A stretch of 64,000 nucleotides of DNA, taken from assembly GCF_000378965.1 (NCBI RefSeq), contig NZ_KB900536.1:3287407-3351406 (forward strand), written 5' to 3'. The DNA comes from Thioalkalivibrio thiocyanodenitrificans ARhD 1 (GTDB lineage: Bacteria; Pseudomonadota; Gammaproteobacteria; Ectothiorhodospirales; Ectothiorhodospiraceae). Positions 1,271-62,434 of the stretch are shown here, one piece after another (the first letter of the stretch is position 1; every line of letters starts with the position of its first letter). The notes beneath the pieces were generated by a model. That model was given only the letters and a program-made list of their open reading frames with translations. It had not been told where the DNA came from and did no database searches. A program made the position numbers and the translations under genes.

Positions 1271-1368
1271 GAAGTGTGAATTGAGAAGCACGAATAAACG
1301 CAAATAACGCAAGAGGCGAGCCAGTGGCTCGCCTCTTGCGTTTAGTCCCACTTCTCAATTCACACTTC
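1271..1368. repeat. Compound inverted repeat between ppiD and fabI
   Basis: There are two nested perfect inverted repeats. The outer arms (1271-1288 and 1351-1368, 18 bp) carry the GAAGTGTGAATTGAGAAG family. The inner arms (1306-1323 and 1325-1342, 18 bp) carry AACGCAAGAGG-type sequence. The right outer arm overlaps the fabI stop codon (TGA on the minus strand at 1362-1360) and its last sense codons. The site lies between converging genes and could stop transcription from both sides, but it has no T-run. The outer sequence recurs at 28410-28543 and the inner one resembles 6985-7087. Confidence 0.85.
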
Positions 1369-2148
1369 AGCGGGCCCCAGTCCGAGGATGTTGTATCCGG
1401 AATCAACGTACAGGATCTCTCCGGTGATCCCGGAGGCCAGATCCGAGGCCAGGAAGGCACCTGCATTGCCCACGTCGTCGATGGTTACGTTCCGGCGCAA
1501 CGGGGCGTTCTTCTCGACGTGGTCGAGGATCTTGCGAAAGTCGCCGATGCCGGCGGCCGCCAACGTGCGGATGGGACCTGCGGAAATGGCGTTGACGCGG
1601 ATGGCCTCGGGGCCCAGGGTGTAGGCCAGGTAGCGGACATTGGCCTCCAGGCTCGCCTTGGCCAGACCCATGACGTTGTAGCTCGGCATGGCACGTACCG
1701 CCCCCAGGTAGCTCAGGGTCAGGATGGCGGCATTGCGGTCCTTCATCATGTGCCGGCCGGCCTTGGCCAGCGCAGCCAGGCTGTATGAACTGATGTCATG
1801 GGCGGTACGGAAACCTTCCCGGGTGACGTTGTCCAGGAAATCACCCTCCAGTTCTTCCTTGGGGGCGAAGGCCACCGAGTGCACCAGCACGTCGAGGCTC
1901 TCCCAGTAGTTGTCCAGGTGCTCGAAGACGGCATCCACCTCCTGGTCGCTCTCCACGTTGCATGGCACCAGGATGTCGGAGTCGAACTCCGCGGCGAGTT
2001 TCTCCACACGTTCCTTGAGGCGTTCGTTCTGGTAGGTAAAGGCCAGCTCCGCCCCTTCGCGCCGCATGGCCCTGGCGATGCCGTAGGCGATGGACCGATT
2101 GCTGGCGACGCCGACGATCAGCGCGCGCTTGCCGGTGAGTAAACCCAT
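1360..2148 (-). CDS. fabI: Enoyl-[acyl-carrier-protein] reductase (NADH), FabI
   Basis: FabI carries out the last reduction of each fatty-acid elongation cycle in the cytosol, reducing trans-2-enoyl-ACP with NAD(P)H. The 262-residue length is typical. The protein opens with the short-chain-dehydrogenase dinucleotide fold ([18 protein letters not shown]) and has the FabI catalytic pattern SYNVMGLAK, with Tyr and Lys spaced Y-x6-K. The C-terminal region has [14 protein letters not shown] chose the ATG at 2148, which has an AGGAG Shine-Dalgarno just upstream, over an upstream in-frame ATG at 2199. The gene converges on ppiD. Its final codons and stop fall inside the flanking inverted repeat. Confidence 0.96.
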
Positions 2149-2332
2149 TTGCGTCTCCTGTACGATGATGTGCCTGCGCGTCCCTGGGGACTCGCACACC
2201 CGGATGAACCTGGGCGGCGATCACGGGTCTGACATCGCGACGGATGATGGCCGGATGGCCGCTCCAGTCGTCTGCCGGAAGTGATGATCGCATCATACTA
2301 TCCGACCCGGGTGCGATCCACTACGGGGTCGG

Positions 2333-2361
2333 ATGAAACGATCGGGGAATACATCTATAGT
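2333..2361 (+). promoter_or_regulatory. Putative sigma-70 promoter for the peptide transporter operon
   Basis: ATGAAA (2333-2338) and TATAGT (2356-2361) are separated by 17 nt, each matching consensus at four to five positions. It lies in the 263-nt gap between the divergent fabI and the binding-protein gene, about 50 nt before the start codon at 2412. Prediction by eye only. Confidence 0.4.
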
Positions 2362-2411
2362 GCGGATGCATTCTGAACAGCCCGACCCATACGTTCTACG
2401 GATTCCTGCCG

Positions 2412-4280
2412 ATGGAAAAACGCTTCTCCGCCAGAGATCTTCCGCTCATCATCGGGCTGTCGCTCATAGTCATTCTGATGGTCCTTCTCATGTATCAGGT
2501 GGACCGGCAGTGGTCGCGCATGGCGGAGATGCATCGGGCCATGCAGGAGCAGAGTGACGATCTGCGCAGGTTACGTGTGGCCCTCCAATCCCTGGAGGGG
2601 CTTGCGCGCACCGGTGCGTTGGCGCCATCTGATGCACCGGGAGCCGCGGACGATGTGGCCGGGGCATTCCAGCGCGCCCTGCGCGCAAGCCGGGACCCGG
2701 AGTTCGCGCCGGGTGACTGGCTGGTGCGGGCGTTTCCCACCGGGCTGAGTACCGTCACGCCGCTGGTATCCAGTGACGCCTACGCGAGCGAGGTGCAGGG
2801 CTACGTACTGGAATCTCTGCTGACACGTGACCCGGATACCCTGGAGTGGCAGGGTCTGATTGCCCGGGATTGGGACATCAGTGAGGACGGACTGATCATC
2901 ACCTTCCGCATGCGTCCCGATGTCACCTTCTCCGACGGCACACCGCTGACGGCGGATGACGTGATGTTCACCTTTGATTTCATCATGACCGAGGCCATTG
3001 CCGCGCCGCGTTCCAGGGCATTCATGGAGAAGCTGGAGAGGGTCGAGGCGCTGGACGAGCACGAAGTCGCCTTCACCTTCGCCGAGCCCTACTTCAACAG
3101 CCTGCAACTGGCGGGCGGCATGGCGATCCTGCCGCGCCATTTCTACGAGTCCTATCTGGACGAACCCGAGACCTTCAATCAGTCCCGGGGTCTGCTCATG
3201 GGGTCCGGGCCCTATCGCCTGTCCGACCCGAAGGGCTGGACGCCGGACCAGGGGCTGGTGGAGCTGGAGCGCAATCCCCGCTACTGGGGACCGGTGGAGC
3301 CGCCGTTCGACCGCGTGGTCTGGCGTGTGATCGAGAACGACAGCGCGCGGCTCACCACGTTCCGCAATGGTGACATCGATGCCTACGGGGCCCGGCCGAG
3401 GGAGTATCAGCGTCTGCTGGATGACGAGCAGCTGCGGGAACGTACCCGGCACTACGAGTACATGAGCCCCACGGCCGGTTATGTTTACATCGGCTGGAAT
3501 CAGGAGCGCGACGGCAAGGCCACCCGGTTTGCGGACCGCCGGGTTCGCCAGGCCATGAGCCATCTCACCCATATCGACCGCATCATCGACGAGATCATGC
3601 TGGGCTATGCGGAACCGGCGGTGAGCCCGTTCAATCCGCGCAGCCCCCAGCACGACACGTCGCTCGAACCCTATCCCTTCGATCTGGCGCGTGCCGGCGA
3701 GTTGCTGCATGAGGCGGGCTACCGTACGCGCAACCGGGACGGCATTCTGCAGGACGGGGACGGGAGGCCGTTCGAGTTCGACCTGGTGTTCTTCCAGGAC
3801 AACGAGGATACGCGCCGTATCGTGCTGTTCCTGCGCGATCTCTATGCGCGCGCGGGTATTCTCATGCGCCCGCGCCCCACGGAGTGGTCGGTGATGCTGG
3901 ATCTGCTCAACCGCAAGGACTTCGATGCCATCACGCTGGGCTGGACCAGCGGCGTCGAGACCGACATCTACCAGATGTTTCATTCAAGCCAGACTGTGGG
4001 CGGCGGTGACAACTTCATCAATTACCGAAACCCGGCACTGGATGAACTCATCGACCGGGCCCGCAGCGAGGTGAACGAGGATGCGCGCATGCCGCTGTGG
4101 CAGGAGGCGGAGCGCATCCTTCACGAGGACCAGCCCTACACCTTCCTGATGCGCCGCCAGACGCTCGCCTTCATAGACCGGCGCGTGAAGAATCTGGGCA
4201 TCACGCGGCTCGGTCTCAACATGGGTATCGTGCCGGTGGAGATCTATGTGCCGGTGGAGCAGCAGAGATATGCGAGATGA
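2412..4280 (+). CDS. Peptide-binding protein of a Yej-like ABC importer, apparently membrane-tethered
   Basis: A 622-residue family 5 extracellular solute-binding protein, the substrate receptor of an oligopeptide importer. The SBP_bac_5 core starts near residue 105 (SDAYASEVQGYVLESLLTRD), with the family signature region LIARDWDISEDGLIITFRMR. Unlike most binding proteins, the N-terminus is a short basic segment followed by an uncleaved-looking hydrophobic helix (about residues 11-28) and a charged, coiled-coil-like stretch (about 30-62). No lipobox or clear signal-peptidase site is visible. I infer a protein anchored in the inner membrane by its N-terminus. It is first in a run with two permeases and a double ATPase, the same order as yejABEF. 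The start codon has only a weak ribosome-binding site. Confidence 0.85.
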   Translation: MEKRFSARDLPLIIGLSLIVILMVLLMYQVDRQWSRMAEMHRAMQEQSDDLRRLRVALQSLEGLARTGALAPSDAPGAADDVAGAFQRALRASRDPEFAPGDWLVRAFPTGLSTVTPLVSSDAYASEVQGYVLESLLTRDPDTLEWQGLIARDWDISEDGLIITFRMRPDVTFSDGTPLTADDVMFTFDFIMTEAIAAPRSRAFMEKLERVEALDEHEVAFTFAEPYFNSLQLAGGMAILPRHFYESYLDEPETFNQSRGLLMGSGPYRLSDPKGWTPDQGLVELERNPRYWGPVEPPFDRVVWRVIENDSARLTTFRNGDIDAYGARPREYQRLLDDEQLRERTRHYEYMSPTAGYVYIGWNQERDGKATRFADRRVRQAMSHLTHIDRIIDEIMLGYAEPAVSPFNPRSPQHDTSLEPYPFDLARAGELLHEAGYRTRNRDGILQDGDGRPFEFDLVFFQDNEDTRRIVLFLRDLYARAGILMRPRPTEWSVMLDLLNRKDFDAITLGWTSGVETDIYQMFHSSQTVGGGDNFINYRNPALDELIDRARSEVNEDARMPLWQEAERILHEDQPYTFLMRRQTLAFIDRRVKNLGITRLGLNMGIVPVEIYVPVEQQRYAR

Positions 4281-4290
4281 TTCACGGGTT

Positions 4291-4390
4291 AAAGTTCAAG
4301 GTTCAAAGTTCAAGGTTCAAAGGGATGGCTCTACGGCACCCAATGCCATGCAACCGCCCTCCCTTGAACTTTGAACCTTGAACTTTGAAT
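4291..4390. repeat. TTCAARG heptamer inverted repeat inside the transporter operon
   Basis: The left arm (4291-4325) is built of alternating TTCAAAG and TTCAAGG units. The right arm (4360-4390) is the reverse complement of the same pattern, shifted by one unit. The region between the arms is about 34 nt. It lies between the binding-protein stop (4278-4280) and the GTG start of the first permease (4402), inside what should be one transcript. Confidence 0.85.
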
Positions 4391-4401
4391 AGGCCTTTCC
4401 C

Positions 4402-5790
4402 GTGACCACGTATCTCCTTCGCCGTCTGCTGCTCATGTTCCCCACCTTGCTGGGGATCACGCTGGTGGTGTTCGTGGTGATGGCGGCGGCGCCCGGGGGC
4501 ATCAGCGCGCAGGCGCTGGTGGACGGGCTCAATCTGGAGCCGCAGGCCAAGCAGGCGCTGGAGGACTATTACAACCGCCGTTACGGGCTGGATCAGCCGG
4601 CACCGGTTCAGTACCTGCGCTGGCTCAACAATGTGTCACCGGTGGGGTTTCGCATCGACGAGACCACCGGCGATCTGGGTCGTTTCTCCCTGATCAAGGG
4701 GTCGGATCTGGGTACCAGCTTTCGTTACGGGCGTCCGGTCATGGATCTGATCGCCGAGCGCCTGCCCATCACCCTGCTGCTCAATGTGATCTCCATTCCG
4801 CTGATCTATGTGATCGCCATCGCCATCGGCGTGCACGCGGCCACACGCCGCGGCAGCAGCTTCGACGTGAGTTCCAGCGTGGTGATGCTGGGACTGTGGT
4901 CGGTGCCTACCATGCTGGCAGGCGTGCTGATGATCGGCTTCTTTGCCTCGGATCAGTTCTGGCGGTGGTTTCCGACGGGCGGGCTGAGCCGGCGGGAGGC
5001 GCTGGACATGCCCTTTCTTCCCCACTGGGGGAGTCTTGGCGACGTACTGATGGTCTTTCTGCTGGCGGGTATCGGTGCTGTCCTGCTGGTGTGGCTGAGT
5101 ATCAGGGGGGCGGTTCGCCTGCGCATGGCGGTACTCGGTGTGCTCGGTGCGGTGGCCGGTGCCCTTGTGGCATCGCAGCCGGCGGGCATGGCCGGTTTCG
5201 GCGTATTCAACGTGGTGATGGCAGTGCTGGTCGGGGGTATGCTTGCCGCCATCGGGTGGAGCGGATTTGATGCCCTGCGTACGGCCACTCTGGGGCTTCT
5301 GGGCGCCATCCTGGGTGTGGTGGTCGCCGCCCAGCTCGGGCAGGAGGGTTTCGTGCGCGGCTTCCTGCTGGATCGCAGCTGGCATCTCGTGCTGCCGGTC
5401 ATCTGTCTTTCCTACGGCGGCTTCGCCTTTCTTGCCAAACTTACGCGCTCCTCCCTGCTTGAGAACCTGATGGCAGACTACGCGCGCACGGCGCGTGCCA
5501 AGGGCGTCTCCGAGCGGGACGTGCTCTGGAAGCACGTGTTCCGCAATTCCCTGTTGCCGCTGATCACCGTCTCCGCCACATTGCTGCCGAGCCTACTGGC
5601 CGGGTCGGTGATCGTGGAGACCATCTTCAGCATCGACGGCATGGGCAAGCTTGCCGTGGATGCGGTCCGCGGGCGCGATCGGGAACTGGTGCTGTCGGTG
5701 ACGCTGATCAGCGGCCTGCTGACCCTGGCCGGTTACCTGCTGGCGGACCTGTGCTACGCCATCGTCGATCCGCGGGTGAGTTATGACTGA
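4402..5790 (+). CDS. Peptide ABC transporter permease, YejB-like, enlarged
   Basis: Inner-membrane permease of the dipeptide/oligopeptide (DppB/OppB/YejB) class, 462 residues compared with about 360 for E. coli YejB. The N-terminal helix TTYLLRRLLLMFPTLLGIT, the conserved LPITLLLN segment and the EAA loop that contacts the ATPase (YARTARAKGVSERDVLWKH) are all present. The C-terminus ends in the family motif IVDPRVSYD. The extra length lies between about residues 213 and 312, where four additional hydrophobic stretches interrupt the usual topology just before the LVLPVI helix. The start is GTG and the end overlaps the next permease by 8 nt, consistent with translational coupling. Confidence 0.88.
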   Translation: MTTYLLRRLLLMFPTLLGITLVVFVVMAAAPGGISAQALVDGLNLEPQAKQALEDYYNRRYGLDQPAPVQYLRWLNNVSPVGFRIDETTGDLGRFSLIKGSDLGTSFRYGRPVMDLIAERLPITLLLNVISIPLIYVIAIAIGVHAATRRGSSFDVSSSVVMLGLWSVPTMLAGVLMIGFFASDQFWRWFPTGGLSRREALDMPFLPHWGSLGDVLMVFLLAGIGAVLLVWLSIRGAVRLRMAVLGVLGAVAGALVASQPAGMAGFGVFNVVMAVLVGGMLAAIGWSGFDALRTATLGLLGAILGVVVAAQLGQEGFVRGFLLDRSWHLVLPVICLSYGGFAFLAKLTRSSLLENLMADYARTARAKGVSERDVLWKHVFRNSLLPLITVSATLLPSLLAGSVIVETIFSIDGMGKLAVDAVRGRDRELVLSVTLISGLLTLAGYLLADLCYAIVDPRVSYD

Positions 5791-6973: not shown

Positions 6974-6984
6974 ACGGCATGACC

Positions 6985-7087
6985 GCGACGCAAAGACGCA
7001 AAGACGCTAAGGGACGCAAAGAATTTGCTTGAACAATCCTTACAACGCCGTTTTGCGAAGCTTTGCGCCTTCGCGCCTTTGCGTCGC
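6985..7087. repeat. ACGCAAAG inverted repeat inside the transporter operon
   Basis: The left arm (6985-7021) carries ACGCAAAG units at 8-10 nt spacing. The right arm (7052-7087) carries the reverse-complement units, with a few mismatches. It fills most of the gap between the second permease (stop 6971-6973) and the ATPase gene (ATG 7114). The unit resembles the inner arms of the repeat at 1306-1342. Confidence 0.85.
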
Positions 7088-7113
7088 ATTTAAGTCCGCC
7101 TTGGAATGTCGCC

Positions 7114-8802: not shown

Positions 8803-8880
8803 CCCGGGTGAACGGCGTCCGGTGTGCAAGGCGTGGCACTCGATCGGTGGGGCGTCAAGGTGTCCCGCTACAATCTTGGA

Positions 8881-8996
8881 CGCCTCACGCCTCACGCCTC
8901 ACGCCTCACGCCTCACGCCTCACGCCTCACGCCTCACGCCTCACGCCTCACGCCTCACGCCTCACGCCTCACGCCTCACGCCTCACGCCTCACGCC
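8881..8996. repeat. Perfect tandem array of CGCCTCA, about 16.6 copies
   Basis: Sixteen uninterrupted identical CGCCTCA heptamers plus a partial unit (116 nt), with no spacers. On the minus strand the unit reads TGAGGCG, the same family as the array at 29479-29563, but no inverted partner arm is found here. The array runs into the 3' end of the FHA gene and supplies its last codons and its stop (8983-8985). Because 7 is not a multiple of 3, all three frames stay open, giving meaningless overlapping ORFs of HASRLTP repeats. Confidence 0.97.
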
Positions 8997-9636
8997 TTCC
9001 GCTTCCCGCCTCCTCGAACTCCATGCGAATCCCGGCGATGTCGATGGTGTCCCCGTCTTGCAGAAGCCGGGCCCGACTGCCGATGTGTTCATTGTTGACC
9101 CTGGGCGATGCACCGCTGGCGCCACCGTCCACATGGATGAGCATATAGCCCTGTCCACGTCGCTGGATGGCGGCCACCTGGATGCCCGGACGGCCGAGGG
9201 TGGTGAGCGCCTTGACCAGGTCCAGGGCGCGACCCTTGTTGGGGCCGGTGAGTATGTGCAGTCTCGCGGGTGAGGGTGAGCCGCCACTGCCGGTTCCCAC
9301 GGGCGCTGGTGCATGGTCGACGCTCCGGGTTGCAGGCCGTACGCGGCCGTCCTTGTGCGTATAGACGAGACGGAAATGATGGATGCCGATCTCGTCACCC
9401 TCCCTGAGGGCGCGTTTCCGGATGGGCCGGTCATTTACCAACGTGCCATTGGTACTGCCCAGATCTTCCACGAGGCTGTCGTTGAGCAGCGTGATGATAC
9501 GGGCGTGATGGCCGCTGACGGCGTGGTCGTTCAGGTATACATCGTTGTCCGGGTTGCGGCCGATGGTAATCGCCTCGCGCGTCAGTGGGATGTCGTACAG
9601 GAACTGGCCGTTGAGGTAGACAATGATATGGGCCAT
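8983..9636 (-). CDS. Protein with two FHA domains
   Basis: A 217-residue soluble protein with two forkhead-associated phosphothreonine-binding modules. The first (about residues 20-90) shows TIGRNPDNDVYLND, HARI and the loop LGSTNGTLVND. The second (about 125-210) is more divergent (TLGRPGIQVAAI, DGDTIDIAGIRMEF). It overlaps the upstream phosphatase gene by 4 nt (ATGA), so the two are very likely made together and act on the same phosphosignalling pathway. No Ser/Thr kinase gene is present in the window. The last residues (RREA) and the stop codon come from the CGCCTCA array, so the natural C-terminus may have been reshaped by the repeat. The biological target is unknown. Confidence 0.85.
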   Translation of the reverse strand: MAHIIVYLNGQFLYDIPLTREAITIGRNPDNDVYLNDHAVSGHHARIITLLNDSLVEDLGSTNGTLVNDRPIRKRALREGDEIGIHHFRLVYTHKDGRVRPATRSVDHAPAPVGTGSGGSPSPARLHILTGPNKGRALDLVKALTTLGRPGIQVAAIQRRGQGYMLIHVDGGASGASPRVNNEHIGSRARLLQDGDTIDIAGIRMEFEEAGSGRREA

Positions 9637-13578: not shown

Positions 13579-13690
13579 GCGCAGAGGACACGAAGTGGAA
13601 TCCCGGCCATCACCTGTGCGTCCCTCGGGTATACCCATGCGCCCCATGCGGTTGGCTTCCCATGACCCCCCGCCCCGTCTACGCTTGCCA

Positions 13691-13730
13691 CTGACAACTG
13701 ACAACTGACAACTGACAACTGACAACTGAC
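13691..13730. repeat. CTGACAA tandem heptamer array upstream of dnaQ
   Basis: Five full CTGACAA units plus five further bases, ending 9 nt before the dnaQ ATG. No reverse-complement arm is present. The array occupies the place of the dnaQ ribosome-binding site. Just after rnhA (about 13579-13594) a short CGCAGAGGACACGAAG resembles one arm of the CACAGAGG family, perhaps a remnant. Confidence 0.9.
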
Positions 13731-13739
13731 CAGTATTCC

Positions 13740-25619: not shown

Positions 25620-25636
25620 GGGAGAGGGGGGTCAGG

Positions 25637-25730
25637 ATTCAAAATTCAAAGTTCAAGATTCAAAGGAGGGACGCGGTGCACCTCAGAAATTGGTTGCCAA
25701 CGGACGCCGCCCCTTTGAATCTTGAATTTT
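25637..25730. repeat. TTCAARR heptamer inverted repeat between rnfH and bamE
   Basis: The left arm (25637-25666) holds four TTCAAAA/TTCAAAG/TTCAAGA/TTCAAAG-type heptamers. The right arm (25712-25730) is the exact reverse complement of the last 2.7 units. It lies between converging genes, with bamE starting its 3' end 4 nt beyond. Confidence 0.85.
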
Positions 25731-26161: not shown

Positions 26162-26590
26162 TTGGAAAGCCAGAATCTGAAAAAGGCCGGACTGAAGGTG
26201 ACGCTGCCCAGGATGAAGATCCTGGAGCTGCTGGAGCGTTCGGAGGACCGCCACCTGAGCGCGGAGGCCATCTACCGCCAACTGCTTGAGGACGGCGAGG
26301 AAATCGGCCTGGCGACGGTGTACCGGGTGCTTACCCAGTTCGAGGCGGCGGGGCTCGTCAATCGCCATCACTTCGAGGGCAATCAGGCGGTGTTCGAACT
26401 GGAACGCGGCCGCCATCATGACCACATCGTGTGCGTCAATTGCGGCCGCGTGGATGAGTTCATGGACGACATCATCGAGGAACGCCAGAAGGCCATCGCC
26501 GACAAGCTCGGATACACGATCAAGGACCACGCCCTGATCCTGTACGGCGAGTGCAACAAGCCGGATTGCCCGCATCGGCCGAAGGGGTAG
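26162..26590 (+). CDS. fur: Ferric uptake regulator Fur
   Basis: A 142-residue metal-dependent repressor. The N-terminal winged helix is QNLKKAGLKVTLPRMKILELLE and GLATVYRVLTQFEAAGLVNRHHFEG. Metal sites are indicated by HHDHIVCVNCGRVDEF (the HHHD-type region and first CxxC) and a C-terminal CNKPDCPHRPKG (second Cys pair), consistent with a structural zinc. With Fe2+ it represses iron-uptake genes. The start is assigned to TTG 26162, supported by GGAGGAG 4-5 nt upstream and by alignment with other Fur N-termini; ATG 26108 would add 18 unconserved residues. It is divergent from bamE, a standard arrangement. Confidence 0.94.
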   Translation: MESQNLKKAGLKVTLPRMKILELLERSEDRHLSAEAIYRQLLEDGEEIGLATVYRVLTQFEAAGLVNRHHFEGNQAVFELERGRHHDHIVCVNCGRVDEFMDDIIEERQKAIADKLGYTIKDHALILYGECNKPDCPHRPKG

Positions 26591-26594
26591 AGGC

Positions 26595-26707
26595 AATTCA
26601 AGATTCAAGATTCAAGATTCAAGATCCAATGAAGCTGTCGCGGCCGCACGTTCAGCCGGCGGTGTAGGGTGTCACCCCTTTGAATCCTGAACTTTGAATC
26701 TTGAATT
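26595..26707. repeat. TTCAAGA heptamer inverted repeat entering the recN 3' end
   Basis: The left arm (26595-26625) contains four TTCAAGA units. The right arm (about 26679-26707) contains reverse-complement units and lies inside the recN coding sequence, encoding about ten C-terminal residues (NSRFKVQDSK). Same family as 4291-4390 and 25637-25730. Confidence 0.9.
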
Positions 26708-28375
26708 GTCTTTCGCCTTTTCAACCATCTCGCGGGCGTGCGCCACGGTCTGGTCGGTGAGTTCCACGCCGCCCAGCATGCGCGCCACTTCCTGCACGCG
26801 GCTGTCGGCATCCAGCACCTGGATGCGGGTGCGCGTGTCCGCCGTGCCCTTGTGCTTGCTGACCTGGAGGTGGTGGTGAGCCTGGGCCGCCACCTGAGCA
26901 AGATGGGTGACGCACAGCACCTGCCGGTGTTCCCCAAGGGCCCGAAGCTGGCGGCCCACCACCTCGGCCACAGCGCCGCCGATGCCCGCGTCCACCTCGT
27001 CGAAGATGAGGGTGGGGATGGGCAGGGATCGGGCTGCGATCATCTGGATCGCCAGGCTGATACGCGAGAGTTCGCCCCCGGAGGCCACCTTTGAGAGCGG
27101 CTGCAGGGGCTGGCCGGGATTGGCCGTGACCTGGAACTCGATGCGGTCGAGGCCATGGGCGGCGGGGCGCATCTCCGGGTCGGCTTCCACGCTCACCTGG
27201 AACCGGCCGCCCTCCATGCCAAGCCCCTGCATGGCGTCGGTCACCAGTTTTCCGAGCTTCTTCGCTGCTGTGCGCCGGGATCGGGTCAGCGCGGCGGCCG
27301 CCTCCCGGTAACGGGCTTCGGCGGCCCGCGCCTTCTGCGTCAGGGCATCGAGATCCTCATCGTCACTGTCGAGCCGCGCAAGCTCTTCCAGCAGGGTCCG
27401 GGTCAGTTCCGGCAGGGCCTCCGGAGAAACCCGATGCTTGCGGGCGAGATCGTGGATGTCCGACAGGCGCTGCTCCACGAATGCGAGCCTGCCCGGATCC
27501 AGTTCCACCCGGTCCGCGTAATGACGCAGGCTGTCCGCCGCCTCCCTGAGCTGGATCCGGGCGCTGGTGATCAGCTCCAGGGGCTCCTTCAGCGCCGGAT
27601 CGAGCCGCGTGACCTCCTCCAGCCGGTGGTGATACGACCCAAGAAGGGTATCCACGGACTGTTCGTCCGCGTACAGGCCCTGGTGCACCGATGCGGTCAC
27701 TTCCAGCAGGCGCCCCGCGTGGGCGAGCCGCCGCTGTTCCTCGTCCAGGCCCGCCACTTCATCATCACCCAGTTCGAGCGCCTTCAGCTCGCCGGTCTGA
27801 AAGCGGAGAAGATCGCGCCGGGCGGTGCGGGCCTCGTCGTTGTCCGAGGCCTGCGCCAGGCGGTTCTGCAGTTCCCGCCATTCCCGGAAGCATTCCCGTA
27901 CGTCGTCCGGAAGTTTCGGGTGATCCGCAAACTCGTCCAGGATATGCCGCTGCACCTCCCGGCGGGTGAGCGACTGATGGGCGTGCTGGCCGTGGATGTC
28001 CACCAGCAGTTCGCCCAGGGCCTTCATGTTCTGCAGGGTGGTGGGGGTGCCGTTGATCCAGGCACGGCTCCTGCCGTCACTGCCCACCACGCGTCTGAGC
28101 AGGCAGTCATCTCCGGCCTCCAGGGACTGTTCCGCCAGCCATGCCCGGGCGTCCGGGTCGTCCGCCACCTCGAAGCCGACGCTGACCTCCGCGCGTTCCG
28201 CCCCCGTGCGTACCGTGGCACTGTCCGCCCGGTCCCCCAGTACGAGCCCCAGGGCATCCACCAGAATCGACTTGCCGGCCCCCGTCTCGCCCGTGAGCGC
28301 CGTCATGCCGGGACCCAGTTCCAGCCCCAACTCGTCGATGATGGCGAAATCGCGGATGTGGAGGGAGGTAATCAT
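26672..28375 (-). CDS. recN: DNA repair protein RecN
   Basis: A 567-residue SMC-like ATPase for double-strand-break repair. Walker A is GETGAGKS (about residue 29) with the N-terminal MITSLHIRDFAIIDELGLELGPGM. A central coiled coil occupies roughly residues 150-380. The ABC signature is SGGELSRISLAIQM, Walker B is TLIFDEVDAGIGG, and the D-loop/H-loop region is VLCVTHLAQVAAQAHHH. The natural C-terminus AHAREMVEKAKD is followed by about ten residues encoded by the flanking heptamer repeat, before the stop. The start ATG has no strong Shine-Dalgarno. Downstream of nadK on the minus strand. Confidence 0.96.
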   Translation of the reverse strand: MITSLHIRDFAIIDELGLELGPGMTALTGETGAGKSILVDALGLVLGDRADSATVRTGAERAEVSVGFEVADDPDARAWLAEQSLEAGDDCLLRRVVGSDGRSRAWINGTPTTLQNMKALGELLVDIHGQHAHQSLTRREVQRHILDEFADHPKLPDDVRECFREWRELQNRLAQASDNDEARTARRDLLRFQTGELKALELGDDEVAGLDEEQRRLAHAGRLLEVTASVHQGLYADEQSVDTLLGSYHHRLEEVTRLDPALKEPLELITSARIQLREAADSLRHYADRVELDPGRLAFVEQRLSDIHDLARKHRVSPEALPELTRTLLEELARLDSDDEDLDALTQKARAAEARYREAAAALTRSRRTAAKKLGKLVTDAMQGLGMEGGRFQVSVEADPEMRPAAHGLDRIEFQVTANPGQPLQPLSKVASGGELSRISLAIQMIAARSLPIPTLIFDEVDAGIGGAVAEVVGRQLRALGEHRQVLCVTHLAQVAAQAHHHLQVSKHKGTADTRTRIQVLDADSRVQEVARMLGGVELTDQTVAHAREMVEKAKDNSRFKVQDSKG

Positions 28376-28409
28376 CCAGATTGGGGAGTTGGAACCGGGA
28401 AGGGGGGAG

Positions 28410-28543
28410 TGAAGTGGGAAGTGTGAATTGGGAAGTGAGAAGTGAAACCAGCCTCACCCCGAGGTGTCGCCTGAGGGAGAGGGAGGGCAACACCTTTCTC
28501 CCGCTTCCAGGTTCCGACTTCCCAATTCACACTTCCCACTTCA
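28410..28543. repeat. Perfect 27-bp inverted repeat of the GGGAAGT family between nadK and recN
   Basis: Left arm 28410-28436 and right arm 28517-28543 are perfect reverse complements. Internally they are heptamer-like (GGGAAGT GTGAATT GGGAAGT). The intervening 80 nt is unrelated. The right arm ends 2 nt from the nadK stop codon. The outer arms of the repeat at 1271-1368 belong to the same family. It separates two genes that are usually adjacent and here both read on the minus strand. Confidence 0.92.
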
Positions 28544-28544
28544 G

Positions 28545-29429
28545 TCACGGTTGTTCCCCCCACCCCAGCTTCGCCCGCAGGATCTGCAGGTAGTCGTAGC
28601 CCGTGGGGTGAATGAGCCGCAGGCGGGTCTTCTTGCGCCGCACGATCAGGCGGTCACCGGGGCCCAGGGTGGTACTGTTCTGCCCGTCGAAGGCGGCATG
28701 GGCGTGACGGCGGTTGAATTCGCAGACGCGGATCTCCACCTCGCTGTCGCCGTGCACCACCAGGGGTCGGTTGGACAGGCCGTGGGGACAGATGGGTACC
28801 AGTACGAGGGCATCCAGGCTGGGGGCCAGGATGGGACCGCCCCCCGAGAGCGCATAGGCGGTTGAACCCGTGGGGCTGGCCACCACCAGTCCGTCCGCGC
28901 GCTGGGTGTTCACATGGCGGCCGTCGATGCGGGTTTCGAACTCGATCATGCGGACCACGTCATGGATATGCAGCACCACGTCGTTCAGGGACAGGCGTTC
29001 CACGGGTTCGGCGCCGTTGGTGACGACCCGGGTGGCCAGCAGGCTGCGGTGGTCCTCGTCGTACTCGCCGGCCAGGATCTCGTCCAGCCGGCTGATCATC
29101 TCGTGGGGGGAGACGTCCACCAGGAACCCCAGCCGGCCGATGTTGATGCCCATCAGGGGCACCTGGTGATCCACCATCGCCCGTCCGGCGGCCAGGAAGG
29201 TGCCGTCACCGCCGATGACGATGGCCAGATCCGCCTGTTGGCCGAGTGCGTCGAGGTCGACCTGCTCGCAGCCATGGTCGTTCTCCAGCCACCCGCGGGC
29301 GCTGTCATCCAGGAGCACCCGGCAGCCGTGGCCGAGCAGGTGATCGATCAGGGAAACGAGAATATGCACCAGACGCTCGTCACTGCGCTTGGTGATGATG
29401 CCAACGGTCCCGAAGTGTGGTTTGCCCAT
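28545..29429 (-). CDS. nadK: NAD kinase
   Basis: A 294-residue cytosolic enzyme that makes NADP+ from NAD+ and ATP. Motifs: VGIITKRSDER at the N-terminus, IVIGGDGTFLAAGR (the GGDGT catalytic motif with Asp), GINIGRLGFLVDV, and the glycine-rich substrate site VASPTGSTAYALSGGGPIL. Length and order are normal. A GATAAT hexamer ends exactly 8 nt before the ATG and no Shine-Dalgarno is apparent, suggesting a leaderless mRNA. It is divergent from hrcA; the gap holds a TGAGGCG inverted repeat and the CIRCE element. Confidence 0.97.
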   Translation of the reverse strand: MGKPHFGTVGIITKRSDERLVHILVSLIDHLLGHGCRVLLDDSARGWLENDHGCEQVDLDALGQQADLAIVIGGDGTFLAAGRAMVDHQVPLMGINIGRLGFLVDVSPHEMISRLDEILAGEYDEDHRSLLATRVVTNGAEPVERLSLNDVVLHIHDVVRMIEFETRIDGRHVNTQRADGLVVASPTGSTAYALSGGGPILAPSLDALVLVPICPHGLSNRPLVVHGDSEVEIRVCEFNRRHAHAAFDGQNSTTLGPGDRLIVRRKKTRLRLIHPTGYDYLQILRAKLGWGEQP

Positions 29430-29467: not shown

Positions 29468-29478
29468 TGTTGCGAGCG

Positions 29479-29563
29479 TGAGGCGTGAGGCGTGAGGCGT
29501 GAGGCGTGAGGGGTGAGGGGTGAGGGGGTACGCCCCCGCTCACGCCTCACCCCTCACCCCTAA
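29479..29563. repeat. TGAGGCG/TGAGGGG heptamer inverted repeat at the nadK-hrcA junction
   Basis: Seven consecutive heptamers (four TGAGGCG then three TGAGGGG, 29479-29527) form the left arm. The right arm (29539-29563) is about three reverse-complement units. It lies between divergently transcribed genes, 10 nt before the hrcA -35 region. The unit is the complement of the CGCCTCA array at 8881-8996. Confidence 0.92.
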
Positions 29564-29573
29564 CGGCATACCC

Positions 29574-33500: not shown

Positions 33501-33533
33501 GCGCGTCGGGGCTGTCCCGCGGCGCCGGCGGAT

Positions 33534-33632
33534 AACGCAGAGGTCGCAGAGGCGCGGAGGCCGCAGAGGTTTTTCTTGATCATGAAAACCTTTCTCTGCG
33601 CCCTCTGCGTTTCCTTTGCGCCCTCTGCGTTC
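33534..33632. repeat. CGCAGAGG inverted repeat between dnaK and dnaJ
   Basis: The left arm (33534-33575) contains about four CGCAGAGG-type units at 8-9 nt spacing. The right arm (33585-33632) contains their reverse complements with small changes. The hairpin apex is only about 10 nt wide and T-rich. It lies in the middle of a chaperone operon. Confidence 0.88.
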
Positions 33633-34815: not shown

Positions 34816-34834
34816 GCGCGGCCTTTGGCCGCGC
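34816..34834 (+). terminator. GC hairpin right after dnaJ
   Basis: GCGCGGCC, TTT loop, GGCCGCGC, beginning at the base after the dnaJ stop. An 8-bp perfect stem without a following T-run, so termination efficiency is uncertain. Confidence 0.4.
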
Positions 34835-34836
34835 AG

Positions 34837-34894
34837 AGGCAAGATACAAGAGGCAAGATACAAGTCACTTCGGTTTTTCTTGTATCTTGTATCT
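34837..34894. repeat. AGGCAAG-ATACAAG inverted repeat between dnaJ and dapB
   Basis: The left arm (34837-34864) is two copies of a 14-nt unit, equivalent to four 7-mers. The right arm (34879-34894) is the reverse complement of the ATACAAG-type part (CTTGTATCTTGTATCT). Apex about 14 nt, T-rich. Confidence 0.88.
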
Positions 34895-34928
34895 GGTCCA
34901 CGGGCCTTGTCGAAGCCTCCGCCCATAA

Positions 34929-35963: not shown

Positions 35964-37091
35964 TTGAGTTCCACACCCGCTTTGCTGGCACTGGAAGACG
36001 GCAGTCTGTTCCGTGGCGTTTCCTTTGGCGCCCCGGGCCGGACCGTCGGCGAGGTGGTGTTCAATACCGCCATGACCGGCTACCAGGAGATACTGACGGA
36101 CCCGTCCTACGCCCGTCAGATTGTCACCCTGACCTACCCCCACATCGGCAACACCGGAGTGAATCCGGAGGACGAGGAGTCCGGCGCAGTGCATGCGGCG
36201 GGGCTTGTGATCCGGGATCTGCCGCCACTGGTGAGCAACTGGCGCAGCCGGGAGGCCCTGCCCGATTACCTGGGTCGCCATGGCGTGGTGGCCATCGCCG
36301 GGATCGACACCCGGCGCCTGACGCGGATCCTGCGGGAGAAGGGCGCTCAGAACGGGTGCATCATGGCCGGTGATCCCGACGAGAACGCGGCGCTTGAGGC
36401 GGCGCGAGGCTTCCCGGGTCTCAAGGGCATGGATCTGGCGAAGGAGGTCTCGGCGGCGGAAGCGTATGACTGGAACGAGGGCACCTGGCGGCTGGAAGGC
36501 GGCCATGCGCCGGCACCCGGAAAGGCGCCCTATCGGGTGGTGGCCTACGACTTCGGCATGAAGCGCAATATCCTGCGCATGCTGGTGGACCGTGGCTGCC
36601 GGATCACCGTCGTGCCCGCGCAGACGCCGGCGAAGACGGTCCTTGAGATGAAGCCCGACGGGGTATTCCTGTCAAACGGCCCCGGTGACCCGGAGCCCTG
36701 TGACTACGCCATCTCCGCCATTGGCGAGATCGTCGACGCGGGCGTGCCCACCTATGGTATCTGCCTGGGTCATCAGCTGCTGGGTCTGGCCAGTGGCGCA
36801 CGCACGGTCAAGATGAAGTTCGGTCATCACGGTGCCAACCATCCCGTTCAGGATCTGGAGACGAAGCGGGTGATGATCTCCAGTCAGAACCACGGGTTCG
36901 CCGTGGACGAGGACACCCTGCCGGACAATCTGAAGGCGACGCACCGCTCCCTTTTCGACGGGACCCTGCAGGGCATCGCCCGCACCGACCGCCCGGCCTT
37001 CAGCTTCCAGGGCCACCCCGAGGCGAGCCCCGGGCCCCACGACGTTGCGCCGCTGTTCGACCGTTTCGTTGAATTGATGGAAAACCGTTAA
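35964..37091 (+). CDS. carA: Carbamoyl-phosphate synthase small (glutaminase) subunit
   Basis: A 375-residue subunit that hydrolyses glutamine and passes ammonia to CarB. The N-terminal domain begins [18 protein letters not shown]. The class I amidotransferase has the catalytic Cys in [15 protein letters not shown] and the His-Glu pair in [17 protein letters not shown] 35964 with GGAGG 8 nt upstream gives the usual N-terminus; the frame is also open back to ATG 35826 but that extension is not conserved. A CACAGAG inverted repeat, beginning directly after the stop, separates it from carB. Confidence 0.97.
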
Positions 37092-37165
37092 GCCACAGAG
37101 GACACAGAGTTCACAGAGCAAGAGCAGAGATCTTTCACCTCTGTGACCTCTGTGAACTCTGTGGC
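37092..37165. repeat. CACAGAG inverted repeat between carA and carB
   Basis: Left arm 37092-37118 starts at the base after the carA stop and has three CACAGAG units at 9-nt spacing. The right arm 37139-37165 carries the reverse complement with the middle dinucleotides swapped (GGA/TTC order changed). Apex 20 nt. It separates two subunits that must be made together. Confidence 0.92.
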
Positions 37166-37181
37166 TAAGCGACTACAACAC

Positions 37182-46656: not shown

Positions 46657-46660
46657 CTCT

Positions 46661-51946: not shown

Positions 51947-51983
51947 AGCCCCCGGACGAATCCAGCGAGTCGAGACATGCGGC

Positions 51984-54359: not shown

Positions 54360-54378
54360 TGCATCAGGGATACGACAA

Positions 54379-55446: not shown

Positions 55447-55456
55447 GGAGCGTGTC

Positions 55457-55945: not shown

Positions 55946-55969
55946 CGCGAAACAGACCAGGGATACCCA

Positions 55970-56563: not shown

Positions 56564-56645
56564 CATGACACGGATATAGAGGGAAGGGCGGAGACAACGA
56601 GGCGGCCCCGTCAGGGCCGTCCGGGAACAACAAACGGGACCCAAC

Positions 56646-56951
56646 ATGATTTCCTTGTCGCACTATCTGGTGCTCGGAGCGATTCTGTTTTCGCTCAGCA
56701 TTGCCGGCATCTTCCTCAACCGGAAGAACGTGATCATCCTGCTCATGTCCATCGAGCTGATGCTGCTGGCGGTGAATATGAATTTTGTCGCCTTCTCCTA
56801 TTTCTCCGGGGATATGGCCGGGCAGGTCTTCGTATTCTTTATCCTTACGGTGGCCGCCGCCGAGGCGGCCATCGGTCTCGCCATCCTCACCCTGCTGTTC
56901 CGCAACCGCCAGACCATCAACGTCCAGGATCTGGACGAGATGAAGGGATAA
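56646..56951 (+). CDS. nuoK: NADH-quinone oxidoreductase subunit K
   Basis: A 101-residue subunit with three helices and the two membrane Glu residues of the E-channel ([14 protein letters not shown] and [12 protein letters not shown]). It follows nuoJ by 82 nt, the largest gap in the front half of the operon; the gap appears free of any gene. nuoL starts 4 nt after its stop. Confidence 0.97.
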
Positions 56952-56955
56952 GGTC

Positions 56956-58941: not shown

Positions 58942-59004
58942 GCGCCGCGACAACAACAAGACGATCAACATGGATCGAAATGCGGAATCAATCGGGACTG
59001 ATCA

Positions 59005-60519
59005 ATGTTTGCTGACTGGCCACTACTGAGTCTGGTGATCTGGACGCCGATCATCGGCGGCTGCATCGTGCTGATGTCGGGTGACAGGATGCCCGGCGGC
59101 GCGCGCCGTCTGGCATTGTTCTTTTCGGTTGCCACCTTCCTGGTCAGCATCCCGCTGTTCATGGGTTTCGACCGGGGCACCCACGAGATGCAGTTCGTGG
59201 AGCTGCTGCCCTGGATCAGTACCTTCAATGTGAACTATCACCTCGGTGTCGACGGCATCGCGATGCCGCTGATCCTGCTGACCACGTTCACCACCGTGCT
59301 GGTGGTGATCGCGGCCTGGGAGGTGATCCAGCACCGCGTGTCCCAGTACATGGCCGCCTTCCTGATCATGGAAGGCTTCATGAACGGCGTGTTCGCGGCA
59401 CTGGACTCCGTGCTCTTCTACGTGTTCTTCGAGGGCATGCTGATCCCCATGTTCCTGATCATCGGCCTGTGGGGCGGGCCGAACCGGGTGTACGCCACCA
59501 TCAAGTTCTTCCTGTATACCTTCCTCGGATCGGTGTTCATGCTGGTCGCGCTGATCTACATGTACACTCGCTCCGGCAGCTTCGCGATCCTGGACTTCCA
59601 CCAGCTGCAGCTGGGCATGACCGCGCAGGTCCTGATATTCCTGGCCTTTCTCGCCGCCTTCGCGGTGAAGATCCCCATGTTCCCGGTGCACACATGGCTT
59701 CCGGACGCCCACGTGGAGGCGCCCACCGGCGGATCCGTGGTGCTGGCGGCGATCATGCTCAAGATCGGTGGCTACGGTTTCCTGCGCTTCAGCCTGCCCA
59801 TCACCCCGGACGCTTCCCAGGCGCTGGACTGGCTTCTGATCACCCTGTCGCTCATTGCCGTGGTCTACATCGGGTTCGTGGCGCTGGCGCAGCAGGACAT
59901 GAAGAAGCTCATCGCCTACTCGTCCATCGCCCACATGGGTTTCGTGACCCTGGGCATCTTCATCGTATTCATGATCCACGGCAGCACCGGCAACTGGCAG
60001 GGCGCGGCGCTGGGTGTACAGGGCGCCATGGTGCAGATGATCTCCCACGGCTTCATCTCGGCGGCCCTGTTCCTTTGTGTGGGCGTGCTCTATGACCGCA
60101 TGCACAGCCGCCAGATCGCGGACTACGGCGGCGTGGTCAACACCATGCCCTGGTTTGCCGCCTTCTTCGTACTGTTCGCCATGGCCAACACGGGCCTGCC
60201 GGGCACTTCGGGCTTCGTCGGCGAGTTCATGGTGATCCTGGCGAGCTTCCGGGCCAGTTTCTGGATCGCCTTCCTGGCTGCCACCACCCTGATCCTCGCC
60301 GCCGGCTACACGCTGTGGCTTATCAAGCGCGTGGTGTTCGGGGAGATCGCCAATGACAACGTGGCAAAGCTCGAGGACATCAACCGCCGGGAGTTCCTGG
60401 TACTGGGCATCCTGGCCTTCGTCGTGTTGCTGCTGGGCGTGTGGCCCGCGCCACTGCTGGAGGTGATGCACGCCACGGTGGACAACCTGATTCAGCACAT
60501 CGCTGTATCCAAGCTTTGA
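59005..60519 (+). CDS. nuoM: NADH-quinone oxidoreductase subunit M
   Basis: A 504-residue antiporter-like subunit. Recognisable segments are [20 protein letters not shown] (Glu of the proton path), [24 protein letters not shown] (Lys region) and [18 protein letters not shown]. The start ATG at 59005 lies 63 nt after nuoL; an earlier start was not found. Confidence 0.98.
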
Positions 60520-60535
60520 GTACCCGGACAACAAT

Positions 60536-61978
60536 ATGAGCTTCGAAATCCCAGATTTCATGCCGGTGATCCCCGAGATGTTCGTGCTCGGCATGGCCTG
60601 CGCGATCCTCGTGATCGACCTGTTCGTGCCCCAGGCCCGGCGCGACATCACCTATGGCCTGTCCCAGTTCACGCTGTTGGGCGCCGCGGTGTTGACCCTG
60701 ATCCTGGCCGCCCCGGAGGCACGGCTCACCTTCAACGGCACCTTCATCGCCGATGCCCTGTCCGACCTGCTCAAGGTGGTGGTGTATGTCATCACCGCGG
60801 CGGTGTTCCTGTACTCGCGCCCCTACCTCAGGGACCGGGATATCTACAAGGGGGAGTACTACGTGCTCGGCCTGTTCGGCGTGCTGGGCATGATGATCAT
60901 GATTTCGGCCTACAGTTTCCTGACCCTGTACCTGGGTCTTGAATTGCTGTCGCTGTGCCTGTACGCCCTGGTGGCGTTCGACCGGAATTCGGGCCGCGCC
61001 TCGGAAGCGGCCATGAAGTATTTCATCCTGGGGGCCATTGCCTCCGGCATGCTGCTCTACGGCATGTCCATCCTGTACGGCATCACCGGCAGCCTGGATA
61101 TCATCGAGGTGAGCAACCACCTGATCACCGCCGGCAGCGGGCTCAACGTACCACTGGTGTTCGCGCTCTCCTTCGTGGTGGTGGCGCTGGCCTTCAAGCT
61201 GGGCGCCGTGCCGTTTCACATGTGGGTGCCCGATGTCTATCACGGCGCGCCCACATCGGTGACGCTGTTCATCGGCACCGCGCCCAAGCTGGCCGGGCTG
61301 GCCATCGTCATGCGTCTGCTGGCGGATGGCCTCGGTCCCCTGCACGGGGACTGGCAGGGGATGCTGATGATCCTGGCGGTGCTCTCGCTGGCCGTGGGCA
61401 ACGTGGTGGCCATCGCCCAGACCAATATCAAGCGCATGTTCGCCTACTCCACCATCTCCCACGTGGGCTTCATCCTCATGGGCATCCTGGCGGGCACTGC
61501 CGAGGGCTACGGCGCGGCGCTTTTCTATGTGATCACCTATGCCATCGTGGCCGCCGGTGGCTTCGGCATGATCATCCTGCTCTCGCGCAGGGGTTTCGAG
61601 GCGGAGAACCTGGACGATTTCCGGGGCCTGAACGAGCGCAGCCCCTGGTTCGCCTTCATCATGCTCCTGATCATGTTCTCCCTGGCCGGGGTGCCGCCCA
61701 CCGTGGGCTTCTACGCCAAGCTCTCGGTGCTGCAGGCCGTGATTCAGGTGGATATGATCTGGCTCGCCGTGTTCGCGGTGATTTTTGCCATCATCGGTGC
61801 CTTCTACTACCTGCGGGTGGTCAAGCTCATGTACTTCGACAAACCGGAGGATGAGACACCGCTGCCCAGGGCCCTGGGCATGAACGTGGCGCTGAGCATC
61901 AACGGCCTGCTGGTGATCGTGCTGGGGATCTTTCCGGGGCTGCTGATGTCTCTTACTACCGGTGTCATAGGGTGGTAG
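60536..61978 (+). CDS. nuoN: NADH-quinone oxidoreductase subunit N
   Basis: A 480-residue antiporter-like subunit, the third of the proton-pumping trio. Typical elements are [40 protein letters not shown] and [19 protein letters not shown]. It closes the 14-subunit nuo set. DUF2818 follows 9 nt after. Confidence 0.97.
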
Positions 61979-61987
61979 GACTGTTAC

Positions 61988-62305
61988 ATGTCTTCCGATT
62001 GGCTGGTTTGGGTGTACTTCTCCATGGCGTTCGTGGCGGCGAACCTGCCCTGGTTCAGTGAGCGGGTGTTTTTCCTGCTGGAGCCGAAGGGCGGGGAGAA
62101 GGGGGCTGCCATGCGCCTGGTTGAGCTGCTGGTGCTGTACTTCATCATCGGCGGCATCGGGCTCGGTTTCGAACGTCAGGTCACCGGCGGCATCCACGGT
62201 CAGGGGTGGCAGTTCTTCGCCATCACCGGCGCTCTTTTCCTGGTGTTCGCCCTGCCGGGCTTTATCTACCGCTACGACCTGCGCAAGCACCTGCGCCACC
62301 GCTAG
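61988..62305 (+). CDS. DUF2818 membrane protein
   Basis: A 105-residue protein with three hydrophobic stretches (about residues 5-22, 42-59, 72-92), starting SSDWLVWVYFSMAFVAANLPW and ending in a basic KHLRHR. It matches the DUF2818 family, often found right after nuoN in non-enteric proteobacteria. The 9-nt spacing from nuoN suggests the same transcript. A role tied to complex I is inference from position only. Confidence 0.87.
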   Translation: MSSDWLVWVYFSMAFVAANLPWFSERVFFLLEPKGGEKGAAMRLVELLVLYFIIGGIGLGFERQVTGGIHGQGWQFFAITGALFLVFALPGFIYRYDLRKHLRHR

Positions 62306-62350
62306 GCCACCATGATCGCGTCGGATCCGTTCCGGGTTGGACGTGTTTGA

Positions 62351-62434
62351 GCCACAGAGGTCACAGAGAGCAATGCCGGGGGCTCCGAAGATCCAGCGAT
62401 CCCTTTTCTCTGTGGCCTCTGTGCCCCCTGTGGC
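62351..62434. repeat. CACAGAG inverted repeat before the initiator tRNA
   Basis: The left arm (62351-62370) has CCACAGAGG and TCACAGAG units. The right arm (62405-62434) has three CTCTGTG-type units, the last degenerate. Same family as 37092-37165 and related to 33534-33632. It lies between DUF2818 and the tRNA promoter. Confidence 0.85.

Follow-up and report, generated by a model that had tools for sequence, protein, structure and literature searches.

Short-period inverted arrays between genes of Thioalkalivibrio thiocyanodenitrificans: probable gene-less copies of small fold-back elements with S23 or GxxExxY cargo genes

In a 64,000 nt stretch of the Thioalkalivibrio thiocyanodenitrificans ARhD 1 genome (C1:3287407-3351406 of the 3.75 Mb genome G000; this whole stretch is referred to as the window), arrays of very short tandem units lie between genes at 13 sites, and the question that they raise is what such arrays are and why most of them are followed by their own reverse complement. 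All 13 arrays listed in a preliminary description of the window are present where it placed them (Table 1; the sites are named here by the start positions first given). These sites appear to be gene-less copies of small fold-back elements, the cargo protein of which would help to copy the hairpin, a reading to which a probability of about 70% is given. The complete element is a short open reading frame (ORF) between two inverted arrays of 7–10 nt units. Two unrelated gene families fill the loop: four-helix-bundle/S23 genes (PF05635, TIGR02436) have arms of period 7, and GxxExxY genes (PF13366, TIGR04256) have CRCRRAN units of period 8–10. Among the latter, units end in G, T, or A according to the clade of the protein.

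The association with GxxExxY is seen in the spacers of genomes G003 and G004 that are orthologous to window site 37092, where a 130 amino acid ORF between inverted arrays encodes a GxxExxY protein (TIGR04256, 2.9e-42; PF13366, 8.9e-43). This family is present in 17 of 58 genomes, comprising that of the window and its relatives, and in 57 of the 299 genomes of a phylum sample. Inverted arms (score at least 14, median 21) flank 72 of 91 GxxExxY loci. Among mismatched flank pairs the figure is 33 of 393, and among other genes of 300–700 nt it is 4 of 168, these four including one masked-base artefact and one heptamer hairpin. The 91 loci, which remain from 92 after one was dropped for a short flank, include orthologues and one locus twice (L243, L246) and are therefore not all independent. 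When periods of 5 to 12 are tried, the arms at the 72 loci have periods of 8 (21.5 loci, with ties split), 9 (31), 10 (18.5), and 12 (1), with none of period 7, and their units are CRCRRAG, CRCRRAT (with ACAGGAT), and CRCRRAA. Four fresh contigs from a viral collection that carry a GxxExxY gene all have arms.

The arm class follows the protein. On a GxxExxY tree of 88 rows, 72 of them labelled, the class changes twice, which is the minimum possible; 2,000 shuffles average 17.75 changes and none has fewer than 11. The tree comes from an alignment of few columns and many of its forks are open. Genomes G003, G004, and G353 contain genes of two clades, each carrying its own arm class. Prediction from the nearest neighbour at no more than 60% identity is correct for 53 of 53 AG and 15 of 15 AT loci and for none of the four AA loci, which are called AT. 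In the four fresh contigs the class of the nearest protein is AT, AA, AG, and AA, while that of the arms by a written rule is AT, none, AG, and AA, so that three agree; the contig without a rule call, L273, has ACGGAA units that are AA by eye.

Residues E29, D68, E78-x-K80, and Q92 are invariant in 12 diverse GxxExxY members, and these presumably form a PD-(D/E)XK active site. A model of the L273 protein, made from a three-row alignment, is of modest quality (predicted local distance difference test, pLDDT, 69.9) and the fold matches listed for it are weak: the top Foldseek hit, SSO0001, has E 0.026, and the highest Z is 6.3 over 96 residues (root mean square deviation 3.6). Several nucleases are near the top of the Foldseek list, and a second comparison gives a mixture of nucleases and unrelated proteins. 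A search of solved structures with GxxExxY gave no match at E up to 1. At all 22 loci that match one of four downstream-neighbour probes the gene is co-oriented with that neighbour, as would suit an element obliged to coexist with the operon. GxxExxY genes are located before trpG at L168, L178, L180, L183, L233, L243, and L244, and before carB at L160, L175, L242, and L248. At L216 and L241 there is an apparently complete small hairpin on either side of the GxxExxY gene, resembling the arrangement of repetitive extragenic palindromes (REPs) at the genes for REP-associated tyrosine transposases (RAYTs).

GxxExxY was considered as the partner of all of the arrays and rejected as such. All 5 genomes of the window's genus have heptamer arrays of the TTCAARR type, and 53 relatives have none; GxxExxY is therefore no explanation for these arrays, and their absence from 12 GxxExxY-positive relatives outside the genus led the search to the S23 genes, toward which remnants in a glyQ-glyS spacer (described below) were also a lead. 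Inverted arms are present at S23 loci in 6 of 7 viral-collection contigs and at 11 of 12 plasmid loci, all 17 with period 7, compared with 36 of 342 mismatched flank pairs; the plasmid loci are from 12 of 46 matching records, 11 being cyanobacterial and one from Azospirillum. A second fetch gave 31 loci, reduced to 19 by removal of 6 that repeat earlier loci, 5 that share a protein with another locus, and 1 that has too short a flank, and of these 19, 15 have arms, 13 of them with period 7, although some of the 19 have similar arms and may be related. Over all S23 loci, arms are found at 32 of 38 and the period is 7 in 30 of the 32. In L298 (Anabaena sp. 90 plasmid) and L303 (Pseudanabaena galeata plasmid) the heptamer-armed four-helix-bundle gene is located between annotated cas6 and cas4 genes, and in L303 an AAAAGCT array of about 15 copies, an extreme expansion, is just upstream of the start codon.

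Genome G000 itself has gene-bearing copies of both types (Table 1). The three intact S23 genes have PF05635 E-values of 2.4e-30, 1.5e-30, and 9.6e-18; a first search, of 859 kb, found none, and all three are in the next 400 kb. For ten of the 13 sites in the window, one and only one of the five cargo genes has arms that match above the best of 200 shuffles: three sites match TTCAAAG arms, two GGGAAGT, one GCAAGTG, one CGCAAAG, and three CACAGAG. The GCAAGTG match, that of site 34837, is marginal (12.5, compared with a maximum of 12.0 in the shuffles). At gathering scores, Rfam identifies no rRNA in the window or in the 20 kb stretches containing the three S23 genes. A tRNA gene (L509:1529-1599) starts 35 nt past the stop codon of the S23 gene L509, a little outside its 3' arm.

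Table 1. Array sites of the window (positions in the window) and gene-bearing copies in G000 (positions on C1)
Feature	Position	RNA folding z	Matching cargo gene arms, or protein family
Site 1271, gene-less hairpin, GGGAAGT-type heptamer outer arms, second unlike hairpin nested inside	1265..1372	-12.4	Four-helix-bundle gene L510
Site 4291, gene-less hairpin, TTCAARG heptamers, 27-bp stem	4288..4390	-9.7	Four-helix-bundle gene L501
Site 6985, gene-less hairpin, ACGCAAAG units, period 8	6983..7090	-4.0	GxxExxY gene L168
Site 8881, unpaired array, ~19 ACGCCTC copies (GTGAGGC family)	8880..9012	no fold	0 of 5 G000 cargo genes
Site 13691, unpaired array, CTGACAA heptamer, ~6 copies	13688..13732	no fold	0 of 5 G000 cargo genes
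Site 25637, gene-less hairpin, TTCAAAG-type heptamers	25636..25730	-4.9	L501
Site 26595, gene-less hairpin, TTCAAGA heptamers	26590..26712	-6.5	L501
Site 28410, gene-less hairpin, GGGAAGT heptamers	28405..28548	-7.9	L510
Site 29479, gene-less hairpin, GTGAGGC heptamers, loop 6 nt	29475..29566	-5.6	0 of 5 G000 cargo genes
Site 33534, gene-less hairpin, CGCAGAGG, period 9, spacer before dnaJ	33532..33632	-8.4	GxxExxY gene L177
Site 34837, gene-less hairpin, GGCAAGA/ATACAAG heptamers, spacer after dnaJ	34833..34896	-5.2	L509 (weakest match)
Site 37092, gene-less hairpin, CACAGAGGA, period 9	37090..37168	-8.0	L177
Site 62351, gene-less hairpin, CACAGAGGT, period 9	62350..62436	-2.9	L177
Four-helix-bundle gene L501, TTCAAAG arms	C1:1486302-1486736		PF05635, TIGR02436
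Four-helix-bundle gene L509, GCAAGTG arms	C1:2831138-2831494		PF05635, TIGR02436
Four-helix-bundle gene L510, GGGAAGT arms	C1:3004253-3004606		PF05635, TIGR02436
GxxExxY gene L168, CGCAAAG arms	C1:1829492		GxxExxY (whole-genome search)
GxxExxY gene L177, CACAGAG arms	C1:2233729		GxxExxY (whole-genome search)

The inverted pairing at most of the sites is evident from two kinds of test. Eleven of the 13 arrays had been said to be paired with their own reverse complement, and so they are: an ungapped search for inverted repeats (score at least 15, arms within 700 nt) finds 10 in the window, nine being listed sites and one lying in coding sequence, and the imperfect pairing of 34837 and 62351 is visible in RNA folds. 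Folding z-scores for the 11 are from -2.9 to -12.4, the fold of 62351 being matched by 1 of 200 shuffles, and sites 8881 and 13691 have no fold in this test. The units, taken at first for unrelated families, fall into two classes, strict 7-mers at nine sites and CRC-RR-A units of period 8–9 at four.

Such arrays were also counted in more of the genome. Within the window and 400 kb of G000 there are 27 intergenic and 12 "coding" period-7 arrays (score at least 15; the split is that of a crude ORF caller), compared with 0 in one Markov-1 resample, and no other period gives more than 2 intergenic or more than 8 coding arrays, the 8 being for period 9. The 400 kb contain 36 paired arrays, where the Markov null has 0. 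A 1.26 Mb sample of 60 stretches plus the window, 34% of the genome, contains 121 array hairpins, a few of which are due to chance, as 5 of the first 85 are outside every listed family; of 82 hairpins of G000, 63 have period 7. A reverse-complement partner within 600 nt is present for 99 of 130 period-7 arrays and 18 of 29 with period 8–10 in the sample, but for only 2 of 23 arrays of other periods and at 14 of 182 random places, a clear excess of paired over unpaired arrays. The tendency of the purine-richer arm to be 5' is borne out by 73 of 85 hairpins, with 11 having a pyrimidine-rich 5' arm. The proposition that the arms of one site match each other much better than they match any other site does not hold at that strength: the partner arm is the best match among all arms at just 28 of 48 sites, and the likeness within a site (mean 0.78) is somewhat, not far, higher than that to the best other arm (0.74).

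A gene that tracks the repeats had been suggested as something to look for, and GxxExxY is such a gene. Whole genomes were counted for the CRCRRAG dimer pattern with the reversed form as control, a comparison that covers the GxxExxY class of array only. An excess of at least 20 is present in 14 of 17 GxxExxY-positive and 2 of 41 GxxExxY-negative genomes, and within genus g3 in 7 of 9 positive and 0 of 11 negative genomes. In the case of the two g3 exceptions, G019 and G046, the GxxExxY genes are flanked by CACGGATGGACACGGAT arms, which predicted that these genomes would contain CACGGATGGACACGGAT arrays. Among 25 genomes (20 of g3 and 5 of the window's genus), matches to this family number 32 and 30 in G019 and G046, 3 in G050, and none in the other 22, several of those in G019 and G046 being about 4.5 kb or less from the gene. 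With G000 left out, 34 of the 56 genomes of the phylum sample that have the gene show an excess of at least 10, as do 9 of the 242 that lack it, an effect that rests on family f51 (32 of 45 compared with 6 of 29).

Comparison of the same spacers in related genomes supports the earlier suggestion that the two arms are made together. Gene order is the same in three genomes of the genus within the stretches compared; the names dnaJ, dapB, carA, carB, trpE, trpG, glyQ, and glyS are what we take these genes to be from their sequences. In G004, which covers all 13 sites, an array or array hairpin is present in 12 of the 13 orthologous spacers when read by eye, of the same family as in the window in 7 and of a different one in 5 (8881, 13691, 25637, 29479, and 37092). 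At 25637, 29479, and 37092, where both genomes have a hairpin and the family has changed, both arms have changed. The different family at 25637 occupies both arms in G003 as well as G004, and at 29479 both arms belong to different families in G003, G004, and G002. The hairpin of 62351 is missing from G004, where a different inverted repeat is present. Palindromes of GTCGGGCTTCAGCCCGAC in inverted pairs form a further repeat family, seen in this G004 spacer and in the G002 spacer orthologous to 33534.

Sister genera provide sites without the element. In eight genomes of sister genera the gap between the aligned ends of dnaJ and dapB is 2–14 nt, with no hairpin, compared with 146–156 nt with a hairpin in the window's genus. 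The glyQ-glyS spacer is 20–90 nt and array-free in eight relatives, and for that of G032 no match was obtained. In G000 and G002 it contains a GxxExxY gene between CACAGAGG arms, in G003 and G004 it contains no gene and a GACAGGAT-type hairpin nested within a hairpin of CRCRGAG-type units, and in G001 and G005 there are GTGAGG-type arms around remnants resembling the end of a four-helix-bundle protein. The assignment of these remnants is from short blastp-short matches, the best being 5.7e-5 over 10 residues; a Pfam scan of the 49-residue G001 remnant gave no match, and the G005 remnant matches beyond chance only that of G001.

Nested unlike hairpins are seen at window site 1271, in the glyQ-glyS spacers of G003 and G004, and in G002 and G047. 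In the last two, composite hairpins (L261 and L263 in G047; L145:265-594 in G002) have CACGAAG-type arms that enclose or adjoin CACAGAGG-type or CGCAAAG-type arms and look like layers of successive insertions. Two other structures were set aside. A long-loop TTCAA pair in G001:C47, the pairing of which spans a whole gene, was taken as chance. A 58 nt imperfect inverted repeat (GGTTACTTTTCTTGCTTGTCC..., also GGTTACTTTTCTT...) at L141:2209-2800 in G004 and L144:86-674 in G003 is of a different kind; its 473–476 nt loop has no convincing ORF and it would be another type of dispersed element.

The joint change of the arms, the nesting of unlike hairpins, and the linkage of protein family, period, and unit class are the grounds for proposing that the folded arms are recognized and copied. 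The cargo protein would recognize the folded arms of its own element and assist in copying the hairpin, as a single unit, to further places between genes that are themselves structured, often the loops of older hairpins. Copying of the whole hairpin would bring both arms at once, slippage afterwards would alter the number of units, and loss of the ORF from most copies would leave the common gene-less form. Long RNA stems that could be trimmed by RNase III may make insertion into an operon tolerable. Transposition, an enzyme activity of the cargo, and processing of the RNA are all putative in this proposal.

Several observations weigh against it. Clear arms are absent at 19 of 91 GxxExxY loci and 6 of 38 S23 loci, and also at four of six GxxExxY plasmid loci fetched from eight hits, the two with arms being in Bernardetia and Sphingomonas. 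Of 133 contig stretches with the heptamer pattern, 93 were searched and three hold an S23 gene, two of these with arms; the S23-like gene L384 is without them. Sites 8881 and 29479 (GTGAGGC) and 13691 (CTGACAA) match no cargo arms in the part of G000 searched. Outside family f51 the link between GxxExxY and array abundance is not significant (2 of 11 compared with 3 of 213, p 0.19). Only one pair among the three G000 S23 genes is detectably similar, at 42%, and the four other GxxExxY copies of G004 are only 35–40% identical to its carA-carB copy; such distant copies within one genome indicate that multiplication of the gene is unlike that of an ordinary transposon. The trpE-trpG and carA-carB positions are common to distant genomes, which fits old residence or homing equally well. 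The clade rule could arise without contact between protein and arms, if the arms are inherited with the gene, and movement is itself something that we infer.

An alternative is that the hairpins came first, with a function at the RNA level in processing or insulating polycistronic mRNA, and that small genes have hitchhiked in the safety of their loops. The strong folds at 11 of the window sites would suit this, as would the continued occupation of the G004 spacers although the family changes. Hairpins in the window and 400 kb also favour co-directional gene pairs (31 of 48, compared with 193 of 365 pairs in the background) and are rare between divergent ones (5 of 48, compared with 87 of 365), the orientations being those of the crude ORF caller. 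However, chance hitchhiking fails to predict that the gene family fixes the period, that the protein clade goes with the unit class, or that the arrays of a genome match the arms of its own gene, and the hairpin-free dnaJ-dapB gap of the sister genera also speaks against it, so that this alternative is considered unlikely.

It has also been proposed that heptamers, which are over-represented in many bacteria, are due to the polymerase (PMC4679880, PMC4692102; published sources are cited here for the portions of their text that were available). The arrays would then be a by-product of slippage and fold-back synthesis with no dedicated protein, their 7 nt period reflecting the polymerase, and the number of units does differ between arms and between relatives. 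The confinement of TTCAARR arrays to one genus, the association with cargo genes, and the period rule oppose this, and it is considered very improbable. More improbable still, by a little, is that the arrays are paired binding sites of global regulators. The same layout has been so interpreted in Geobacter metallireducens, where paired short tandem motifs on opposite strands number 24, 21, and 8 pairs in the portion available (PMC2700814). Here, several unlike families replace one another at one spot, and the positions span unrelated operons; furthermore, SACGGAGA, the complement of the Geobacter class 2 unit TCTCCGTS, contains the CRCRRAG unit of the GxxExxY arms if S is C. Of the three readings offered in the preliminary description, a spreading element is thus the best supported: members of two gene families occupy gene-bearing copies, and where these families occur, and with which arms, goes along with the gene-less arrays. 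The restriction of the arrays searched for to certain genera, and their link to cargo genes, count against a free replication by-product.

As gene-less copies of elements with a cargo gene, the arrays resemble the REP/RAYT system (TnpA-REP, REPtrons), in which, as far as the available text goes, a gene lies between inverted cognate repeats, there are many gene-less intergenic copies, gene and repeat coevolve, and repeat abundance tracks the gene (PMC2817692, PMC8266576; also PMC8049555 for the logic of the system). They differ in that the cargo is PF13366 or PF05635, rather than the HUH tyrosine transposase of RAYT, and in that the repeat is a short-period tandem array, rather than a 20–40 nt palindrome; the cargo proteins scanned have no match to transposase models at E 0.001. 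Terminal inverted repeats likewise close a loop with an S23 ORF in the intervening sequences of 23S rRNA, as in the period-7 class here. In the text available these have a 28-bp stem in one case, are called selfish, and have their horizontal acquisition discussed (PMC4990558). In contrast, the elements described here are in the spacers of protein-coding genes, those with S23 have arms of period 7, and many copies are without a gene.

With 7 nt tandem units at nine of the 13 sites, the window also invites comparison with heptameric simple sequence repeats or short tandemly repeated repetitive sequences (SSR/STRR). Intergenic heptamer arrays include GGGNATC of Xanthomonas and Nostoc and the heptanucleotide repeats of cyanobacteria, with 70 and 75 inverted heptamer pairs in two Xanthomonas genomes (PMC4692102). 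The portion of that source available describes no cargo gene, whereas here 11 of 12 plasmid S23 genes lie between inverted heptamers. The Geobacter motifs are similar in being short tandem units paired on opposite strands, also between operon genes such as proB and proA, and differ in having been interpreted as regulator sites with no cargo gene described in the text available (PMC2700814). In the P6b region of the Nostoc trnL intron, complementary heptamers form a stem and one class of motif has repeatedly taken the place of the other; this is within a group I intron, and the available part of the account describes no ORF (PMC4476775). The repeats of Xanthomonas and Geobacter, TAACTGA (PMC4679880), and those of the Nostoc intron may, by analogy and on the text available, be of the same or a similar kind. 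No link of S23 or GxxExxY cargo genes with arrays, and no treatment of repeats for GxxExxY, was found in the portion of the open-licence PMC literature available, and a text search with the unit strings gave no related title among the matches listed.

A more specific proposal, put forward tentatively and thought rather doubtful, is that S23 and GxxExxY would each define a class of mobile element with ends that are inverted arrays of a protein-specific period, rather than fixed sequences, written while folded. The heptamers would perhaps be copied via RNA by a borrowed reverse transcriptase, and the GxxExxY class by way of a structure-specific nuclease. Behind this suggestion is a possible relationship of the S23 family to Avd, which partners the reverse transcriptase of diversity-generating retroelements, although the connection is thin: a consensus-like S23 sequence is above the Pfam bAvd cut-off (3.1e-14), but the three G000 S23 proteins have no bAvd match at 0.001, for which reason the proposal as a whole has been given a lower probability.

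GxxExxY and S23/four-helix-bundle proteins are widespread small families with, to our knowledge, no known job outside the rRNA inserts. Short-period intergenic repeats in cyanobacteria, Xanthomonas, Geobacter, and giant sulfur bacteria have no agreed cause in the portions of the literature available (PMC4679880, PMC4692102, PMC2700814). If cargo genes and repeats explain each other, then the repeat family would be predictable from the cargo gene and the reverse. This would add a class of element that settles in operons between genes, often those for subunits, and it may help to explain how structured RNAs, such as 23S rRNA helices and intron loops, have acquired inserts. The more specific proposal, if true, would also account for many short-period intergenic repeats that are otherwise unexplained, perhaps including the heptamers of cyanobacteria and Xanthomonas.

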